DNA of 64,000 nucleotides from Microbispora amethystogenes. Lineage in GTDB: Bacteria > Actinomycetota > Actinomycetes > Streptosporangiales > Streptosporangiaceae. Below are positions 43,337-51,944 of this stretch, piece by piece. The stretch lies in the NCBI RefSeq assembly GCF_016863015.1, contig NZ_BOOB01000004.1, positions 124,001-188,000 of the forward strand, given 5' to 3'. How positions within the stretch are numbered: position 1 is the first letter of the stretch; every line of letters begins with the position of its first letter. Under the pieces are notes generated by a model that saw only the letters and a list, made by a program, of their open reading frames with translations, made no database searches and was not told the DNA's origin. A program made the position numbers and the translations under genes.

Positions 43337-43385
43337 CTGAGAGCCAACTCAGAAAACGTCCGGTAGTGACGCACTCTCAGTTGGC
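43337..43385. terminator. Inverted repeats after the LCP gene
   Basis: Two symmetric elements overlap: a small hairpin CTGAG-AGCCAA-CTCAG (43337-43352), and GCCAACTCAGA (43343-43353) matched by TCTCAGTTGGC (43375-43385) with 10 of 11 bases complementary. They begin 22 bases after the LCP stop and cover the start of the small downstream frame. They could be a terminator or an operator for the downstream gene. Confidence 0.5.
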
Positions 43386-43788
43386 ATCAGTGCACAAGGT
43401 CGCCTTCGCCCTGCTCGCACCCTCCGGCGGAGGCCCAGGAAGTGCTTTCGCGGATGGCGGAGGAGTTCGCCCTGCTGGAGCCGAGCAGACGTACCGTCAG
43501 GAAACCTTCCCGACTTATCGTCTGCGGGCCGAAACAGTGGCCGCGATGTCTCGGGCGGTCGCCTATCGACGCCGGGGCGTGGACGGCACGGACCAGAAGA
43601 TCATCGATCACGTTCGCGAGTACGGCTTCGTGACGAACCGCACCCTGCAGCGCCTCTTCGACGTCCAGGTGTACACCGCGCGTGACATGCTCGACGACCT
43701 GCGCGCACGTCAGATCCTGGAGAAGATCGGGGACGCGCGTGGCGGCACCGGGGTCAGGTACGGGCCAGGGCCCGCTTCTCCCCGCTGA
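43366..43788 (+). CDS. Winged-helix fragment, possibly a gene remnant
   Basis: Only the last 75 residues look protein-like: DGTDQKIIDHVREYGFVTNR, TLQRLFDVQVYTARDMLDDL, RARQILEKIGDARGGTGVRY. This is a winged helix-turn-helix of the kind found at the C-terminus of AlbA_2/RecG-like regulators or as a stand-alone domain. The upstream part of the frame is Gly/Ala-rich and unconvincing; ATG 43546 is a likelier start than GTG 43366. In another frame near 43425-43490 the sequence EVLSRMAEEFALLEPSRRTV also looks coding, which suggests a longer gene that has decayed. Confidence in a working product is low. Confidence 0.45.
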   Translation: MTHSQLASVHKVAFALLAPSGGGPGSAFADGGGVRPAGAEQTYRQETFPTYRLRAETVAAMSRAVAYRRRGVDGTDQKIIDHVREYGFVTNRTLQRLFDVQVYTARDMLDDLRARQILEKIGDARGGTGVRYGPGPASPR

Positions 43789-43867
43789 TCGGTCGCATCC
43801 CACCGGCCGGAGGATCACCCGGCGCATCGTCCGCCGACGACGTGGCCGGACGGCTGTCGCCGGTGGG

Positions 43868-45196
43868 TCAGGCGACCGGGGCCGCCGGGGCGGGAAGCGC
43901 GCCGTTGCGCTCGCGCCACGACGTGAGGTGCCGGTCGGCGGCCTCCCTGGCGATCGTCGCCGCGGCGGCCGGGACCGGCTCGCGGCGCCACTCGTCGAGC
44001 CGCCGCGCCATCCGGGCGACGAACCGCTCGCCGGGCGCGGTCAGGCTGCCGCTCGTGAGGAGGGTGCCCGACACCACGCGGGCCGCCTCACGCCACCGGG
44101 CGAACTCGGCCGCGGCGCTCACCGCGTCCGCACCGCTCTCGTGGTGCCGCTGCCGCCGCCAGAAGCCCGCGACGCCGAGGAACGCGTACGCGCCCTGCAG
44201 CAGGCCGCCGGCCGGCCGGGGGTCGTCGCGCCAGGGGGCGTAGTAGCGGGCGCCGTCGTCGGGCCGGGTGAGCGGCACGATGTCGAGCAGCGCGGACAGC
44301 TTGGCGTGCTGCGTCTCGTGGGCGAGCGTGACCGCCAGCGTCTGCGCGTCGGGGGGCGTGGACAGCGCGACGCAGCCGAACGTCTCCCGGGAGGTCGCGC
44401 TGGACAGGCCGCGCTCCGGCGGCGCGAGCGGGGTGAAGACGGTGATCGCCGCGGCGACCTCGTCGGCCACCCGGGGATGGTTGCGGGCCAGCAGGTCCCA
44501 CGCCTCCTGGAGCACGCCCCGCCAGCGCTCCGCCTCCGGCTCGCTCAGACGGCCGCCCAGGTTGCCCGAGCCGGGCATCCGGTGCGGGTCGAGGTCGTCC
44601 ACGAGCACCCGGAGCCGCCGGCCGTCGCTTTCGGCGGACAGCGACCGCAGGCCCGTCCATCCCGGCTCCGCTCCCCCGATCCGCACGGCGAGGCCGTCCA
44701 CGCCGACCTCGGCTCCGCCGGGAGCGGAGTGGACGGTCGCGGTGGCGGTCCGGGCCGCGCTCTCGGCGGGCAGGGTGACCTGGCCCAGCGAGGGGAGCGT
44801 GACCACTCCGCCGGTCACCGGGACGTCGACCTCGCACGTCACACCGGCCCTGACCACCGCGGCGGCGGCGAGGGACGCGAACCGCTCGATCCCCTCGCCG
44901 GTGGCGACCGCGTGCCGGGCCCACGCCCCCACCGACGGATGGCGCAGCACCGCGGCCACCGCCTCGGGGTGGTGCGCCTGGACGGCCGCCAGCAGGTCGT
45001 AGGCGCGGCGCGCGGCGGCCCACCGCGCGTGCCCGGCCCGCCGCGCCGCGTCCAGCACTCCCCGTACGAGCAGCAGGTGCTTGCTGTACTGGGCCGCGAC
45101 CAGGCGGCCGACCGCCGGGGCGCCCCCCGCGCCCCCGGCGAGTTCGTCGAACGCGTCGGCCGGGATCCGGTGCTCTGTCAGCTGCGGTGAGATCAT
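43868..45196 (-). CDS. HExxH-motif protein of the FxSxx-COOH system
   Basis: 442 residues from ATG 45196. The protein has a helical N-terminal half (HRIPADAFDELAGGAGG, YSKHLLLVRGVLDAARRAGH, LLAAVQAHHPEAVAAVLRHP) and a zinc-protease-like motif HETQH at about 293-297 (TLAVTLAHETQHAKL). A possible further metal ligand follows in RRQRHHESGADAV. Proteins of this layout are the 'HEXXH motif domain' family that accompanies FxsB radical SAM enzymes. The ATG overlaps the fxsB stop (ATGA 45193-45196), so the two are made together. A role as peptidase for the modified precursor is plausible but unproven. Confidence 0.87.
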   Translation of the reverse strand: MISPQLTEHRIPADAFDELAGGAGGAPAVGRLVAAQYSKHLLLVRGVLDAARRAGHARWAAARRAYDLLAAVQAHHPEAVAAVLRHPSVGAWARHAVATGEGIERFASLAAAAVVRAGVTCEVDVPVTGGVVTLPSLGQVTLPAESAARTATATVHSAPGGAEVGVDGLAVRIGGAEPGWTGLRSLSAESDGRRLRVLVDDLDPHRMPGSGNLGGRLSEPEAERWRGVLQEAWDLLARNHPRVADEVAAAITVFTPLAPPERGLSSATSRETFGCVALSTPPDAQTLAVTLAHETQHAKLSALLDIVPLTRPDDGARYYAPWRDDPRPAGGLLQGAYAFLGVAGFWRRQRHHESGADAVSAAAEFARWREAARVVSGTLLTSGSLTAPGERFVARMARRLDEWRREPVPAAAATIAREAADRHLTSWRERNGALPAPAAPVA

Positions 45197-46389
45197 CGAG
45201 GTTCCTTGGGACGGGCCGACAGGTCGGCCTGGACGGCGGCCCCGATCCGGCGGATGAGCGCCAGCAGGTCGGGACAGTAGACCGAGGGGTTCTGGAAACC
45301 GCTGCCGTGCCGATAGCGATGGGCGTAGAGGCCGCCGCCGCAGATCCCGCCGACCGGGCAGCCGGCGCATTCGGCGGCGAGCGCGAGCGCCCCGATCTGC
45401 CGGGCGGCGGTGCCGGGGAGCAGCAGCAGGTCGTCGAAGGAGTGCGTGGCCACGTGCAGGCCGGTGTTCCCCGCGCCCTCGTACGCCGACTTGAGCAGAT
45501 CCGACTGCTCGATCTCTCCGTCGGTCTCGACGACCACCATGGCCGCCGGGGACAGGCCGACCTGCTCGGAGGCGGACCACCCGCCGAGCAGCAGATGGAT
45601 GATCTCGCCGAACAGCCGCACGCGCGGAGCCCGGCCGGGCGCGGCGTACCAGCGGTCGAAGACCGCGCCGAGCCAGTCGGCGTACGGCGTGGCCGGCAGG
45701 CCGGCCGTACGGCCGGGCGGCGGGGCGGACCAGTTGCCGTGCGGCAGCAGGAAGTCGACGGCCGGCGGGCCGAAGCCGCACAGCGCCTCGTACGTCTCGG
45801 CGGGGTCGTTGCACAGGTCGACGGTGCACAGCAGCCCGCGGAACAGGTGCCGGAACGCCGGAGAGGTCAGCCGGGTGAGCGCCGCGGCGGTGCGGTCGTA
45901 GCTGCCGCGGCCGTCGGCGGTGCGGCGGACCCGGTCGTGCGCGTCACGGCTCCCGTCGAGGCTCACCCCGAGGCCGACGCCGAGCGCGTCGAAGACCCGC
46001 AGGTAGTCGTCGTCGAGAAGGGTGGCGTTGGTCTGCGCCAGGACGTCGACGCGGGCGGGCACCGCGGCCCGCAGGGTGCGGACCGCGTGCTCGATCTCCG
46101 CGGGCCCGGCCAGCAGCGGCTCACCGCCGTGCAGGACCACCTCCACCGACTCGACGCCGTGCGCCGTCACGTGCTCGGCGATCCGTGCGGCGGTCGCCGC
46201 GACGGTGTCGCGGCTCATCCGGCGGGGACGGCTCCGCCAGGTCTGGTCGGCCATCTCGTACACGTAGCAGTAGGAGCACGCCAGGTCGCAGCGGCTGTGG
46301 ATCTTCAGGATGAACTGCCTGAACGGGGTGGGCCGCCAGCCGTCCGCCAGCAGCGCATCCACGTCGAGAGTCGACGGCCACTCGGGCAC
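45193..46389 (-). CDS. fxsB: FxsB family radical SAM/SPASM peptide maturase
   Basis: 398 residues. WRPTPFRQFILKIHSRCDLA opens the domain and the cluster motif is C-DLA-C-SY-C, followed by VYEMADQTWRSRPRRMS, a stretch characteristic of this family. VVLHGGEPLLAGP is the GGEP strand that binds SAM, and DVLAQTNATLLDDDY and LGVSLDGSRDAHDR follow. The C-terminal SPASM region has Cys residues for auxiliary clusters (AAECAGCPVGGICGGGLYAH and NPSVYCPDLL). FxsB enzymes belong to the three-residue cyclophane-forming group (with Xye and Grr systems) and crosslink the Phe ring to the Ser beta-carbon of a C-terminal F-x-S in the precursor. A matching precursor lies at 49080-49247. GTG start at 46389, with GGAGG upstream. 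Confidence 0.93.
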   Translation of the reverse strand: MPEWPSTLDVDALLADGWRPTPFRQFILKIHSRCDLACSYCYVYEMADQTWRSRPRRMSRDTVAATAARIAEHVTAHGVESVEVVLHGGEPLLAGPAEIEHAVRTLRAAVPARVDVLAQTNATLLDDDYLRVFDALGVGLGVSLDGSRDAHDRVRRTADGRGSYDRTAAALTRLTSPAFRHLFRGLLCTVDLCNDPAETYEALCGFGPPAVDFLLPHGNWSAPPPGRTAGLPATPYADWLGAVFDRWYAAPGRAPRVRLFGEIIHLLLGGWSASEQVGLSPAAMVVVETDGEIEQSDLLKSAYEGAGNTGLHVATHSFDDLLLLPGTAARQIGALALAAECAGCPVGGICGGGLYAHRYRHGSGFQNPSVYCPDLLALIRRIGAAVQADLSARPKEPR

Positions 46390-46440
46390 CGCGGATCAGC
46401 CTCCACGCTGGGGCTCCTAAGGGTGCCCAGCATAGTGAGA

Positions 46441-48087
46441 TCACGCCGTCTGCCGGAGCATTTCCCTCGCCTGCTTGAGCAGGTCGGGCGGCAGGCGATC
46501 GAGCACGCCGGTCACCACCTGCGCGGCGGCCTTGGGGGTGCCCGCCCTGACCAGCGCCTCGGCGAGGGCAAGGTGAGCGGCCATGTCATTGGGCGCCCAG
46601 CTCAGCGCGGCGGTGATGCGCTCGATCGCCTTCACGTGGTCCCCCTGGCGCAGCCACAGCAGGCCGTCGGCCCGGAGCATCCGCGCCACGCCGTCGAACC
46701 GCTGGCGCTCGGCGTAGAGTTCGACCGCCTCCTCGCAGTATCGCCGCGCGGTCTCGTACTCGCCGTTCTCGACGGCCACCTCGGCGAGGATCTCGGCGGC
46801 CTCCGCCCGCACCCACGACTCGCCGAGGTCGGAGGCCCGCACCGCCTCGCCGGCGAGCCGCCGGGCCTGCTCCCACTTGCGGGTGGCCAGCGCGGCGCGG
46901 GCCGCCCGCAGGTACGCCTCCGGGGAGTCGGAGCGGGAGATCGGCCGGATGAGCCGGTCGTGGGCGAGCTCGTACCACCGGATGCCCCGCCGGTGTTCGG
47001 CGCGCAGGATGTGCCGGTCCTCCAGTGCCCGCGCCACCGCGTTGGGCATGCTGCGGGTCTGCTGCAGTCCCTCGTAGACCATGTTGCGGGTGCCGTGCTC
47101 GGTGACGAACGTGTTGCGCAACCAGAACTTGATCTCGCCCGGCGACATGTCGAACTCCTCGGCCACCTCGGCGACCATCCGTTTGCAGAAGTCGTACAGG
47201 AACTCCTCCACGTCGGCGTACGCGCGGGCGTGCCGTTCGGTGATCTCGGTGACGCCGGGCGGGAGCGACTCCCAGAGCGCCGCGCAGACGACCTGCAACT
47301 GGACCGGCTCGACGGTGTCCAGCATGACCTTCGACTCATGGCCGGCCTCGTCCACGATGACCGCCGTACGCAGGTCGTCCACGAGCAGTTCGGCGGCGGC
47401 GGGCGTGATCGTCCTGCCGGTGTGCCCGAGCGGCCGCGCCACCGCCTCACGGGCCGCCTCGGGGGTGAACGGCCGCAGGTGGAAGCGGGCCCGCGAGCCC
47501 TGCCCGAACGGCCGCTCGTACGGCAGGACGAGGAACAGGTACTCCTCCCGCAGCGAGAGCAGCAGGTGCAGCCCGGTGTGCTCCTGTACGGCGGTGGTCA
47601 GCTGGTCCAGCAGCTCGGTCCGGTCGCGTTCCCCGGCCGGCCCGCCCTGGAACATCTCCTCCGCCTGGTCGACGGCCGCGAGGATCGGCATCGGGTCGCC
47701 GTACTCGTCGGTGCGCTCGGGCCGGGCCCGCAGGAACTCCGTCACCGTCAGGCCGGCCGTCGTGCGCGGGTCCCGCTCGGGCGCCCAGCAGGACAGCAGC
47801 GCCGCCACGTACGGGTTGCCGCTGCTTTCCGGCGGCCGGGGCCGGGGATGGACCCTGGCGACCGGCAGCAGGTCGACCCGGCCGGGATCGAGCCGGGGCA
47901 GCACGCCCGCCTGGAGCAGCGACGTCTTGCCCACTCCGGACGCGCCGTAGAGGACGGTCAGCCCGGCCGCCTGCCACAGGGTGGCGATCTCCCGCGCCTC
48001 GCGGTCACGACCGTGGAACAGAGCGCTCTCGTCGCGCTGGTACGGGCGCAGCCCCACGTAGGGGCGGACAGGCGCGGTCTCCGTCAT
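46441..48087 (-). CDS. nSTAND1-type NTPase with C-terminal TPR-like helices
   Basis: 548 residues from ATG 48087, coupled to the SIR2-like gene by an ATGA overlap. RPYVGLRPYQRDESALFHGR is the standard opening of nSTAND1 proteins. Walker A is YGASGVGKTSLLQAG (48-60) and Walker B MPILAAVDQAEEMF. Then come winged-helix sensor segments (EEFDMSPGEIKFWLRNTF, IRWYELAHDRLIRPI). The last 130 residues are TPR-like helical repeats (WVRAEAAEILAEVAVENGEY, KAIERITAALSWAPNDMAAH). STAND ATPases are ligand-triggered switches that oligomerise; with a SIR2-type neighbour this is the pattern of a sensor controlling an effector. A 51-base gap separates it from fxsB downstream. Partner ligand unknown. Confidence 0.87.
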   Translation of the reverse strand: MTETAPVRPYVGLRPYQRDESALFHGRDREAREIATLWQAAGLTVLYGASGVGKTSLLQAGVLPRLDPGRVDLLPVARVHPRPRPPESSGNPYVAALLSCWAPERDPRTTAGLTVTEFLRARPERTDEYGDPMPILAAVDQAEEMFQGGPAGERDRTELLDQLTTAVQEHTGLHLLLSLREEYLFLVLPYERPFGQGSRARFHLRPFTPEAAREAVARPLGHTGRTITPAAAELLVDDLRTAVIVDEAGHESKVMLDTVEPVQLQVVCAALWESLPPGVTEITERHARAYADVEEFLYDFCKRMVAEVAEEFDMSPGEIKFWLRNTFVTEHGTRNMVYEGLQQTRSMPNAVARALEDRHILRAEHRRGIRWYELAHDRLIRPISRSDSPEAYLRAARAALATRKWEQARRLAGEAVRASDLGESWVRAEAAEILAEVAVENGEYETARRYCEEAVELYAERQRFDGVARMLRADGLLWLRQGDHVKAIERITAALSWAPNDMAAHLALAEALVRAGTPKAAAQVVTGVLDRLPPDLLKQAREMLRQTA

Positions 48088-48965
48088 GTCGTCCTCATTC
48101 TGTCCAGCAGCTCCTGGAAGAAGTCCTCGGTGCTCCCTATGTAGATGGAGATGCTCCAGCCGTCGAGGTAGCGCTCCAGGTACTCCTGCGCCTTGCCCGC
48201 GGCGCCGGCGACCGTCCCGCTCAGCTCCGGCAGAAGCTGGACGCTGACGTGCCGCCGCCTCCGCGTGAGCGGAACGGGCCGGATGAGGCCGTGGAAGAGC
48301 ACCCGGAAGTTCCAGTCCTGCAGGCTGTAGCCCACGAACAGCAGGGGCCTGGCGGTCATCGCGGCGAGCACGGGGGTGGGCAGCGGCTGCCGCACCCCGG
48401 AGGCGCGGGCGTCGACCATGTTGACCAGATATTCGAGGTAGTCGTCCTCGGTGAGCACGAGTGACGCGGGGTCGTCCCAATGACCGTGGAGGTGATAGAC
48501 CAGCGGCCGCCGGGACGTCGGCTCCAGCGCTTCGATGTCGTCCGCTTTCGTGTCCCACCAGGTCGAGGTGTACGTCTCCGGCGACTTGGGCTCCGCTTCG
48601 GACCGCTGCAGCGCCTGCGTCATGAAATCGTCGTAGTTGGTGGTGATGAACGTCGTGATGGGAAATCGCGCGAGCACCGTGTGCGGATCGAGCGCATTCG
48701 TGGCCTCGCCGGCCGGATACCGCTTCAGATAATCGCAGATCTCGTGCTTGAGCTCGACATAGTCCCGGCCCAGAAGCGCGACGTACTGCATCACCCGGGC
48801 CAGGTTGCCCGAGTCGGCGAACGGATACCGATACTCGTGCGCGAAATGGCGGCTGAGTTCACCGCCGGTGGGCAGCCGCCCGAAACAGGAACCCGCACCG
48901 AGAAGCGGCGTGCAGTCACCCCTGCGGAGCTGCTTGATCAGCCGTTCCCAGTCCGCATCGTTCAC
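48084..48965 (-). CDS. SIR2-like (SIR2_2) NADase-type protein
   Basis: 293 residues from the GTG at 48965. The NAD-binding loop is CTPLLGAGSCFGRLPTGGEL. The active-site Asn sits in FITTNYDDFM (Asn110) and His in PLVYHLHGHWDD (His158/160), with VGYSLQDWNFRVLFHGLIRP near the C-terminus; this is the SIR2_2 pattern of bacterial immune effectors such as ThsA and of SIR2-STAND proteins. There is no zinc-binding Cys4 module, so it is not a classical deacetylase. It is the second gene after the FxsA precursor and overlaps the nSTAND gene. NAD hydrolysis is the expected activity; the role in an Fxs locus is inference. Confidence 0.88.
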   Translation of the reverse strand: MNDADWERLIKQLRRGDCTPLLGAGSCFGRLPTGGELSRHFAHEYRYPFADSGNLARVMQYVALLGRDYVELKHEICDYLKRYPAGEATNALDPHTVLARFPITTFITTNYDDFMTQALQRSEAEPKSPETYTSTWWDTKADDIEALEPTSRRPLVYHLHGHWDDPASLVLTEDDYLEYLVNMVDARASGVRQPLPTPVLAAMTARPLLFVGYSLQDWNFRVLFHGLIRPVPLTRRRRHVSVQLLPELSGTVAGAAGKAQEYLERYLDGWSISIYIGSTEDFFQELLDRMRTT

Positions 48966-49054
48966 ACGTCATCCCGGGGGTCGCCGCAAAGTCACCAGTT
49001 AAGTCGATTATGACCCACGATGACGGCAACGGACCGGCGATTGATTTGCGGACG

Positions 49055-49072
49055 GGCCGGATTATCCCGGCC
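49055..49072 (-). terminator. Hairpin between the FxsA precursor and the downstream operon
   Basis: GGCCGG-ATTATC-CCGGCC is a perfect 6-bp GC stem with a 6-base loop, beginning 7 bases after the precursor stop codon. No T-run follows. It may partly terminate transcription or protect the 3' end so that precursor mRNA exceeds maturase mRNA, as is common in peptide operons. Confidence 0.5.
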
Positions 49073-49079
49073 GGAATGC

Positions 49080-49247
49080 TCAAATAGCCGATTGAAAACC
49101 GGCGTAGGGAACAGAACCATCCTCTTCCAGCAGACGGCGCAGGGCCTCCGACAGTGCCGGATTGTCCACCTGTCCGAGTTCGGCCAGGCTGAGACCGGTC
49201 ACATCGATCAGACCACCGCTGTACCCACCATCGGCCATGTCGCCCAT
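49080..49247 (-). CDS. fxsA: FxsA precursor peptide of the FxSxx-COOH system
   Basis: 55-residue peptide from ATG 49247 (GAGGAG just upstream; ATG 49238 is an in-frame alternative). The leader contains IDVTGLSLAELGQVDNPALS and EALRRLLEEDGS, the amphipathic pattern typical of FxSxx-COOH peptides, and the chain ends PYAGFQSAI. The last five residues, Phe-Gln-Ser-Ala-Ile, fit the family-defining F-x-S-x-x-COOH. The Phe and Ser are the residues FxsB is expected to join into a three-residue cyclophane. No Cys. It lies at the head of the SIR2/nSTAND/fxsB/HExxH operon and is divergent from the NB-ARC/TPR gene. Confidence 0.92.
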   Translation of the reverse strand: MGDMADGGYSGGLIDVTGLSLAELGQVDNPALSEALRRLLEEDGSVPYAGFQSAI

Positions 49248-49396
49248 GACGCTCCTCGTCCGACAAACAGTGGACCCCATCTTCCCCCACGCGCATGGCG
49301 AGGTGCCACCAGTCTGACTCCTTGACTCTTCAATCCACGAGGTGTGGCGCTCTAAGCTTTGTCCAAACCAATCGAGCCCCGGCAAGGGATGGCAGC
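49248..49396. promoter_or_regulatory. Divergent promoter region between fxsA and the NB-ARC/TPR gene
   Basis: This 149-base spacer must hold start sites for both directions. Toward the plus strand TTGACT (49322-49327) is a fair -35 element, but no -10 stands at 17 bases; CTAAGC lies at 25. The ribosome binding sites are GAGGAG for fxsA and AAGGGATGG for the plus-strand gene. No clear operator repeat was seen. Confidence 0.45.
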
Positions 49397-51928
49397 GTGT
49401 CGGCTTCGCACTTTTCGTCGGACTCTGGCCGCATGCCCGTCATTTGGGGCAGAGTTCCCCAGCAGAACAAGAACTTCACCGGACGCAAGGACCTGCTCGA
49501 CAAACTTCGCGCCGACCTCATGACCGAGACCACGGCCGCCGTCCTCCCCCATGCCCTGCACGGTCTCGGCGGCGTGGGCAAGACCCAGCTCGCGATGGAG
49601 TACGCCCACCGCTTCCGGCACGAGTACGACCTCGTGTGGTGGATCCCGGCCGACCAGCCCATGCTGGTCAAGTCGTCGCTCGCCGGGCTCGCCAGGGAGA
49701 TGAAGCTGCCGAGCGCGGTCTCCGCGGGGATCGAGGACGCCGCCGAGGCCGTGCTGGACGCGCTGCGCCGGGGCGAGCCGTACGGCCGGTGGCTGCTCGT
49801 CTTCGACAACGCCGACGACCCCGAGCAGATCAACGACATCATCCCCCGGGGTCCCGGGCATGTGCTGATCACCTCCCGCAACCACAGCTGGCAGGGGGTG
49901 GTCGACACCGTCACCGTGGACGTCTTCCTGCGCGAGGAGAGCAAGGAGTTCCTGCTCCGCCGGGTGCGGCGAGGGCTGAGCGAGGAGCAGGCCGACCGGC
50001 TGGCCGACGCGCTCGGCGACCTCCCGCTCGCGCTGGAGCAGGCGGGCGCCTTCCAGGTCGAGTCGGGCATGTCCGTCGACGAGTACCTTCGGCTCCTGCG
50101 GGAGCAGACCACCCGGCTGCTGGGGATCAACAAGGCCTCCGACTATCCGCTGTCGATGACCGCGGCGTGGGCGCTGTCGGTGACACAGCTCAGGGGGAAG
50201 TCGCCCGAGGCCGTGGAGTTGCTGCGCTGCTGCGCCTTCTTCGGTCCCGAGCCGATCCCGCGCGACGTGTTCGAGCCCCTGCCGGAGCCGTTCGCCGCCC
50301 AGTCGCGGATGGCCGACCTGTTCGCCGACTCGATCCGGGTGAGCGGAGCCGTCCGCGAGCTCGGCCGGTACGCGCTGGTCCGCATCGACTCCGAGAGCCG
50401 CACCCTCCAGGTCCACCGGCTGGTCCAGGCGCTGCTGCGCGACGAGCTCGACGATCCCGAACGGGCCGCGTTCCGGCGGGAGGTACACCTGCTGCTCGCG
50501 GCCGCCGCCGCGCCGTACGAGGCGGACGACACCCAGTCCTGGCCGCGTTACGCCGGGCTGCTCGGCCATGTGGCCCCCGCCGACGTGGCGAGCAGTCATG
50601 ATCCGCGCATCCGCTCCTTCGCCCTGAACATCGTCCGCTACCTCTACTCGTCCGGCGACTTCCTGTCGGCCCGGTCGCTGGTGGAGCGGTTCATCGAACG
50701 CTGGCGGGCCGACAGCGGCGAAGACGACCGGCACGTGTTGTCCGCCCACCGCCACCAGGCGATCGTCGTCAGAGAGCTGGGCGAGATCCAGGAGTCGTTC
50801 GACCTGAACCGGCGCGTGCTGGAGCGGATGCGGCACGTGCTCGGCGAGGACGACGGTGAGACGCTGCTGCTCACCAACAGCCACGGGGCCGACCTCCGCT
50901 TCCGCGGCGACTTCCAGGCGGCGCTGGAGCACGACAAGGAGTCGCTCCGCAGGCACGAGGCGGTCTTCGGCCCGTCCCACCGGCGGACCCTGCGGGCCAT
51001 GAACAACCTGGCCCTCGACTACCTGCTGCTCGGCGACTACGCGACAGCGCTGGAGCTGCAGTCCAGGACGTTCACCCTGCAGAAGCGGTCGGGCTCCAGC
51101 AAGCAGAACGTGCTGGCCTCCTGGAACGGCCTGGCCCGGCTGCTGCGGCTCAACGGCGAGTACCGCCAGGCCTGCGACATCGGCGAGGACGCCTACGAGT
51201 ACGGCGTGCAGGAGCTGGGCCGCGAGCATCCCTGGACGCTCCGGACCGCCAAGGACCTGTCGATCGCCAAGCGCCGGGCCGGCTACATCGAGGAGGCGCT
51301 GGAGCTGGCCCGCAGCACCTACGACCTGCAGGAGCGCATCTTCGAGGAGGTCGACCACCCCGACACCCTGGCCGCCGCCCTCTGTCTGGCCAACGCCCAG
51401 CGGGCCTACGGCGAGACCGGCGCGGCGCTCGAACTGCTGGAGGACATGACCACCCGCTATCCGCGCATGTACGGCGACGACCACCCGTTCAAGTACGGCT
51501 GCGACACCAACCTCGCGCTGCTGCTGCGGGTGAACGGTCAGGCGGAGCGGGCCAGGGACATGGACGCACGGGCGCTGAACGGATTCGACGGCCGCCTCAC
51601 CCGGGACCACCACTTCTCCCTCACCTGCGCGATCAACCTCGCCAGCGACCTCGCCGCCCTGGGCGACGCCGAGGCGGCCAGTGAACTGGGCGAGGACACG
51701 CTGGCGCGGCTTCGCGCGCTCCTGGGCGAGAGCCACCCGCTGACCCTCGCCGCCGCCGCCAACCACGTGATCGACCTGCGGACGGTGGGAGACGCCGAGG
51801 CGGCGGACACGCTGCTGGCCGACACGCTGGAGCGGTACGTCGGGGTCCTCGGCCCCGAGCATCCGGACGCCGTGGCGTCCCGCGAGGGCCGCCGGCTCGA
51901 CTTCGACTTCGACCCACCCGTCCTCTGA
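49397..51928 (+). CDS. NB-ARC/TPR STAND protein of the FxSxx-COOH system
   Basis: About 843 residues from GTG 49397. N-terminal NB-ARC ATPase: VPQQNKNFTGRKDLLDKLRA, Walker A HGLGGVGKTQLAMEYAHRF (56-63), Walker B RWLLVFDNADDPEQI, VLITSRNHSW (sensor) and LGDLPLALEQAGAF (GLPL-like). A winged-helix part follows (GRYALVRIDSESRTLQVHRL), and from about residue 400 a long array of tetratricopeptide repeats (ALEHDKESLRRHEAVFGPSH, NNLALDYLLLGDYATALELQ and more). This is the architecture of 'FxSxx-COOH system tetratricopeptide repeat protein'. The TPR array probably senses a ligand, perhaps the FxsA peptide. Ends 16 bases from the convergent AbrB-family gene. Confidence 0.9.
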   Translation: MSASHFSSDSGRMPVIWGRVPQQNKNFTGRKDLLDKLRADLMTETTAAVLPHALHGLGGVGKTQLAMEYAHRFRHEYDLVWWIPADQPMLVKSSLAGLAREMKLPSAVSAGIEDAAEAVLDALRRGEPYGRWLLVFDNADDPEQINDIIPRGPGHVLITSRNHSWQGVVDTVTVDVFLREESKEFLLRRVRRGLSEEQADRLADALGDLPLALEQAGAFQVESGMSVDEYLRLLREQTTRLLGINKASDYPLSMTAAWALSVTQLRGKSPEAVELLRCCAFFGPEPIPRDVFEPLPEPFAAQSRMADLFADSIRVSGAVRELGRYALVRIDSESRTLQVHRLVQALLRDELDDPERAAFRREVHLLLAAAAAPYEADDTQSWPRYAGLLGHVAPADVASSHDPRIRSFALNIVRYLYSSGDFLSARSLVERFIERWRADSGEDDRHVLSAHRHQAIVVRELGEIQESFDLNRRVLERMRHVLGEDDGETLLLTNSHGADLRFRGDFQAALEHDKESLRRHEAVFGPSHRRTLRAMNNLALDYLLLGDYATALELQSRTFTLQKRSGSSKQNVLASWNGLARLLRLNGEYRQACDIGEDAYEYGVQELGREHPWTLRTAKDLSIAKRRAGYIEEALELARSTYDLQERIFEEVDHPDTLAAALCLANAQRAYGETGAALELLEDMTTRYPRMYGDDHPFKYGCDTNLALLLRVNGQAERARDMDARALNGFDGRLTRDHHFSLTCAINLASDLAALGDAEAASELGEDTLARLRALLGESHPLTLAAAANHVIDLRTVGDAEAADTLLADTLERYVGVLGPEHPDAVASREGRRLDFDFDPPVL

Positions 51929-51944
51929 CCCGGCGCCGCCGGCG

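Follow-up and report, generated by a model that had tools for sequence, protein, structure and literature searches.

The locus described here encodes the components of an FxSxx-COOH (Fxs) peptide system together with a predicted SIR2-type NADase and two STAND ATPases, and lies in a 64,000-nucleotide stretch of the Microbispora amethystogenes genome (contig NZ_BOOB01000004.1, positions 124,001 to 188,000 of the forward strand; hereafter the window). Judged from sequence, it represents a subtype of the Fxs system marked by SIR2-nSTAND1, whose most probable role is that of an intracellular system of immunity or conflict, of the abortive kind, a reading to which we assign a probability of about 0.5. 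The same gene order is found again in dozens of loci of the order Streptosporangiales, so that the arrangement in the window is more than chance, and the observations support the view that SIR2 and TIR/FxsC alternate between Fxs units.

Genes of the locus and the predicted NADase

The locus is a compact set of six genes, whose coordinates and two overlaps, proposed in a first-pass annotation made from the letters, are borne out by curated models.

43868-45196, minus strand: HExxH protein, aKG-HExxH peptide beta-hydroxylase-like, 442 amino acids (aa) (TIGR04267, 5e-55; motif HETQH)
45193-46389, minus strand: FxsB radical SAM/SPASM cyclophane maturase, 398 aa (TIGR04269, 459.9 bits, cut-off 370; CxxxCxxC)
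46441-48087, minus strand: nSTAND1 ATPase with C-terminal TPRs, 548 aa (PF20703, 3e-34, and TPR models)
48084-48965, minus strand: SIR2_2 protein, predicted NADase, 293 aa (PF13289, 6e-30; PADLOC ThsA, 1.5e-18)
49080-49247, minus strand: FxsA precursor, 55 aa, MGDMADGG...VPYAGFQSAI (TIGR04268, 53.9 bits, cut-off 28)
49433-51928, plus strand: divergent NB-ARC/TPR protein, FxSxx_TPR (NF040586, 1039.8 bits, cut-off 300; PF00931 and TPR)
43789-51944: the whole Fxs locus as present/absent unit, between an HTH-like open reading frame (ORF) and an AbrB-family gene

On the minus strand the SIR2 operon runs from FxsA, its first gene, through SIR2, nSTAND1-TPR and FxsB to HExxH, with 4-bp overlaps between SIR2 and nSTAND1 (48084-48087) and between FxsB and HExxH (45193-45196), while the NB-ARC/TPR gene diverges from the FxsA start region. 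The C-terminus AGFQSAI of the precursor displays the F-x-S-x-x feature of the Fxs system. For the NB-ARC gene, the start initially placed at 49295 has to be moved, probably to the ATG at 49433, since the resulting protein has 831 aa and its orthologues 832 aa. This protein, already known to NCBIfam as an Fxs component (NF040586, 'FxSxx-COOH system TPR protein'), shows neither a TIR nor a ParA domain in a Pfam scan.

The SIR2 protein looks catalytically competent by its motifs and its model. It carries GAGSC (23), TTNYDD (108), HLHG (158) and GYSLQD (212), and the residues N110, D112, H160 and G161 do not vary across 47 relatives that are 37-83% identical; in the Rossmann motif GAGSC, the Ser of GAGxS is replaced by Cys. 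These motifs correspond to those mutated in Avs5, whose immunity is lost with N110A or D112A (PMC12931631). ThsA, KomC and DSR2 are matched by profile and are likewise the folds nearest to the AlphaFold2 model of the protein (predicted local distance difference test, pLDDT, 90). The corresponding model of nSTAND1 (pLDDT 93) finds its best fold match in the STAND-TPR protein 6mfv.

Recurrence, alternation with TIR and history

In a sample of 250 Streptosporangiales genomes, with FxsB called at E <= 1e-90 and SIR2 relatives at E <= 1e-15, FxsB was found in 169 genomes and the window-type SIR2 in 52, all of them among the 169. FxsB thus accompanies 52/52 SIR2-bearing genomes and 117/198 others (Fisher 8e-11, uncorrected for phylogeny), and the linkage of the SIR2/nSTAND1 pair to Fxs genes in relatives is not random. 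Gene order was examined in 51 named FxsB loci and in well over 100 further regions of ~20 kb with SIR2 or FxsB at their centre, with genes called by a simple codon model and sorted with profiles built in this analysis. nSTAND1 follows SIR2 in 80 of the 83 distinct SIR2 genes (with a 4-bp overlap in 55), a divergent NB-ARC gene lies upstream in 79 and FxsB or HExxH within 9 kb in 75; the exceptions are partly contig ends. An FxsA-like peptide gene stands directly upstream of SIR2 in most SIR2 loci and, where SIR2 is missing, before nSTAND1 in the same direction. In one subclade (L150, L155, L158, L164), a Voltage_CLC channel gene adjoins the SIR2 unit. Elsewhere in Actinomycetota, 397 sampled genomes gave the window's own genome as sole match to the window-type SIR2, and phage records gave one weak match.

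The relationship to other Fxs units was assessed on 177 NB-ARC units, non-redundant at 95% and drawn from a sample enriched for SIR2 by design. SIR2 together with nSTAND1 is present in 71 of them and SIR2 only in 2 more, FxsC in 44, and 19 are of the VMAP type (MoxR/SAV_2336); 17 units have nSTAND1 with neither SIR2 nor TIR, to which come 4 with nSTAND1 not divergent, 3 are NB-ARC-SIR2 fusions and the remainder falls into none of these types. Among loci picked by FxsB alone, FxsC units are the commonest type.

None of the 44 FxsC units contains SIR2 in its own operon. Five of them (L153, L154, L157, L193, L151) adjoin a SIR2 unit, always as separate convergent neighbours; since such units sit separately side by side, FxsC and SIR2 are compatible per genome and not mixed per unit. 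The NB-ARC proteins follow the same division: by Pfam scan, TIR_2 is found in 25/25 of those from FxsC units, with the architecture ParA-TIR-NB-ARC-TPR, versus 0/37 NB-ARC-TPR proteins from SIR2/nSTAND1 and nSTAND1-only units, and in VMAP-type units 6/19 have a TIR and 13/19 show none. FxsC itself keeps, in 38 of 48 proteins, a CGxE motif which would correspond in position to the catalytic Glu of TIR. TIR and SIR2 thus segregate by Fxs unit.

Three NB-ARC-SIR2 fusions (L146:8857-11364, L149:9172-11664, L185:7780-10383), in which a SIR2 domain replaces the TPRs at the NB-ARC C-terminus, tie SIR2 to the NB-ARC partner; a SIR2-nSTAND1 fusion was not found among the relatives.

Two broader statements were rejected. 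That a SIR2 protein takes the place of FxsC at the window locus is right in so far as no TIR is present there, but a swap of one position it is not: nSTAND1 is additional, the TIR of the NB-ARC protein is gone as well, and gene order and partners differ. Likewise, the notion that Fxs loci gate an NADase gains from the alternation of SIR2 and TIR and fails as a general rule, as nSTAND1-only units and most VMAP-type units possess neither domain.

A tree of nSTAND1, made with a quick method from 103 rows, has SIR2 in 80/89 rows of one clade and in 0/14 of the other, and requires at least 6-7 changes of SIR2 presence versus about 21 in shuffles. Because SIR2 clusters on this tree, the SIR2-nSTAND1 pairing is, by this phylogeny, old and mostly inherited, with few losses. 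In L214 the apparent loss of SIR2 stems from a contig that breaks off.

Within the genus of the window, 3/15 genomes have the SIR2 operon. In the relative G015, with a LytR flank gene 97% identical to that of the window, the HTH-like ORF and the AbrB gene are 41 bp apart versus 8.16 kb in the window (by coordinates), so that the locus has been gained or lost as a block. Cell-envelope and metabolic genes are found in the flanks of the locus in the window. The HTH-like ORF of the window (140 aa, 43366-43788) may be a truncated copy, since its G015 relative, 41 bp from AbrB, has a longer open frame.

Outside the order, Ensifer adhaerens plasmid pB (L259:6905-11883) carries SIR2 and then an nSTAND1 whose large C-terminal region is not of TPR type; a caspase-like gene is near, and no Fxs genes were seen in the vicinity. 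Since this pair stands without Fxs, SIR2-nSTAND1 is a self-standing module, which the Fxs locus contains. Together with the existence of SIR2-less nSTAND1-type Fxs loci, this would fit an independent defence pair which merely hitch-hikes with the Fxs/NB-ARC locus and has no functional coupling to the peptide. Such a passenger is nevertheless very improbable in view of FxsA, co-directional before SIR2 or, where SIR2 is missing, before nSTAND1, of the NB-ARC-SIR2 fusions, of the dependence on FxsB in every SIR2-bearing genome, and of an association that is old and stable over a divergent clade.

Peptide maturation and proposed function

By analogy, FxsB would form a cross-link from Phe to Ser within the C-terminal FQS of FxsA, with the HExxH protein as hydroxylase of the peptide; for fused FxsB-HExxH enzymes of the ChlBH type, cyclophane formation and subsequent beta-hydroxylation are described (Morishita 2024, as cited in PMC12636437). 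In the loci compared, the peptide enzymes are more variable than the STAND/SIR2 part. Another SIR2 clade (L175, L177, L180-L182, L184) has no local FxsB, and its precursor upstream of HExxH combines an FxsA-like leader with a Trp-motif core (RLWQED, LWQSD, RWNKSD), so that enzyme and peptide motif change together; HExxH, NB-ARC, SIR2 and nSTAND1 are constant where they do. Separately, SIR2-linked FxsA-like peptides at L080, L130, L161, L162, L163 and L170 show Ala for Ser in the FxS motif (FDAGF, FDAAL, FDASL, FQAAL, FQASI), with FxsB present.

As an immune or conflict system, the locus would work as follows. A trigger, infection or stress, would drive the ATP-dependent assembly of the NB-ARC and/or nSTAND1 proteins, whose TPR arrays would read the modified C-terminal FxsA peptide; nSTAND1, translationally coupled to SIR2, would gather SIR2 subunits into an active oligomer, which would degrade NAD+ in the manner of the SIR2 of ThsA, DSR2 and Avs5. 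It is conceivable, if rather doubtful in this full form, that a radical-SAM-cyclised intracellular ribosomally synthesised and post-translationally modified peptide (RiPP) licenses or restrains a two-STAND SIR2-NADase complex in which the NAD-consuming TIR/SIR2 outputs and the peptide chemistry are interchangeable.

Several observations weigh against an immune function of this kind. In the samples searched the SIR2 subfamily is confined to Streptosporangiales, and the statistics rest on related lineages. Some nSTAND1-type loci have no SIR2 and no visible substitute effector, so that SIR2 is not required for nSTAND1 to act. G031 and G152, two relatives from within the genus, keep FxsA (AGFQSAI), SIR2, nSTAND1, HExxH and NB-ARC despite having, between nSTAND1 and HExxH, an fxsB relic with both ends left after an internal deletion of ~1 kb (L121:12138-12373 in G031, L120:11028-11275 in G152). 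Finally, in 32/85 cases nSTAND1 has a gene for a TIGR00900-like MFS transporter within 1.5 kb, which would fit a secreted peptide.

With the relics in G031 and G152, the proposal that SIR2 and the STAND proteins are wired to the maturase proves too strong. Other FxsB genes exist elsewhere in both genomes, and supply of FxsB in trans is therefore possible. The same two genomes bear on the idea that FxsA, modified or not, is an antidote that holds the SIR2/nSTAND1 complex inactive in a toxin-antitoxin or guard arrangement, triggered when supply or maturation of the peptide fails. The position of FxsA at the head of the SIR2 operon in most loci, the presence or absence of the locus as a unit, and the SIR2-nSTAND1 pair without a peptide, to which the peptide could be an added regulator, are all compatible with such a restrained toxin; an obligate modified antidote, however, should not permit the loss of FxsB with retention of SIR2/nSTAND1 unless the FxsB encoded elsewhere acts in trans, and we regard this explanation as unlikely. 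Within the immune or conflict reading, a role of the peptide as alarm or licensing signal is slightly favoured over restraint because these two relatives tolerate the loss of FxsB at the locus, though FxsB exists elsewhere in both.

The transporter genes, in turn, point to a RiPP cluster with an exported peptide, a signal or an antibiotic, in which NB-ARC and nSTAND1 would be AfsR-like regulators or peptide receptors and SIR2 a regulatory or modifying protein and not a suicide effector. FxsB and HExxH are RiPP enzymes, as such a cluster would have them, and the NB-ARC protein is weakly AfsR-like. No TIGR00900-like MFS transporter is found at the window locus, however, and the nearby MFS genes elsewhere split evenly into co- and anti-directional (16 and 16); moreover, both motifs and fold place SIR2 with the defence NADases, and the alternation of TIR and SIR2 is hard to fit with a natural-product regulator, all of which makes an exported peptide improbable.

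Relation to known systems and meaning

FxSxx peptide-processing genes with AP-ATPase-TPR proteins, the latter carrying a TIR or an inactive MinD/ParA-like domain, have been read as conflict systems in which the peptide is predicted to be a toxin or a signal (Kaur 2020; PMC7159879). These actinobacterial systems share with the window the FxSxx precursor, the radical SAM maturase, the zincin-like/HExxH protein and the NB-ARC/TPR protein. Their AP-ATPase effectors, of TIR or ParA/MinD type, stand alone or in VMAP ternary systems, whereas the NB-ARC protein of the window lacks TIR and ParA and a separate SIR2-nSTAND1 pair is added; SIR2 is not mentioned in Kaur et al. 2020 (PMC7159879). Neither a MoxR ATPase nor a vWA/SAV_2336-type protein was called around the window locus, which separates it from the VMAP ternary type. 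FxsC-type loci have the same precursor, maturase and NB-ARC/TPR families, but in them FxsB is fused to HExxH, a TIR-like FxsC and a ParA-TIR-NB-ARC-TPR protein are present, and SIR2 and an nSTAND1 beside NB-ARC are absent; no FxsC lies beside the window locus. The two enzyme families of the window, radical SAM and aKG-HExxH, are those of the ChlBH-type fused enzymes, with the difference that FxsB and HExxH are encoded by separate, overlapping genes.

Among defence systems, the closest SIR2 folds and profile matches belong to ThsA of Thoeris and KomC of Kongming. A SLOG sensor domain is present in ThsA, and KomC acts together with KomB; neither of the two is known to be linked with a RiPP or with STAND-TPR proteins. 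Avs5 likewise combines SIR2 motifs of the GAGxS/TTNxD/HG type with a STAND ATPase, but in a single polypeptide that acts as sensor of a phage protein, and no peptide maturase goes with it (PMC12931631). The window locus instead has separate, overlapping SIR2 and nSTAND1 genes, GAGSC, a TPR sensor region, peptide maturation genes and a second STAND protein, and so does not unite SIR2, STAND and a phage-protein sensor in one chain as Avs5 does.

As far as the literature found shows, the SIR2-nSTAND1 subtype, its alternation with TIR, the NB-ARC-SIR2 fusions and the FxsB-less Trp-motif branch are new; the NB-ARC gene as an Fxs component and the idea of a conflict system are not (PMC7159879). A search for literature on FxsB/FxSxx with SIR2 or STAND, outside which most subscription papers lay, yielded Kaur 2020 as the only relevant account of Fxs. 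What the Fxs peptides, widespread in actinobacteria, are for appears not to be settled, the only proposal found being bioinformatic (Kaur 2020). A SIR2 NADase which is paired with the same maturation genes and alternates with TIR provides a testable output, the loss of NAD+. If the immune or conflict reading is true, RiPP chemistry would be linked to STAND/NADase immunity, with a modified self-peptide as control element.

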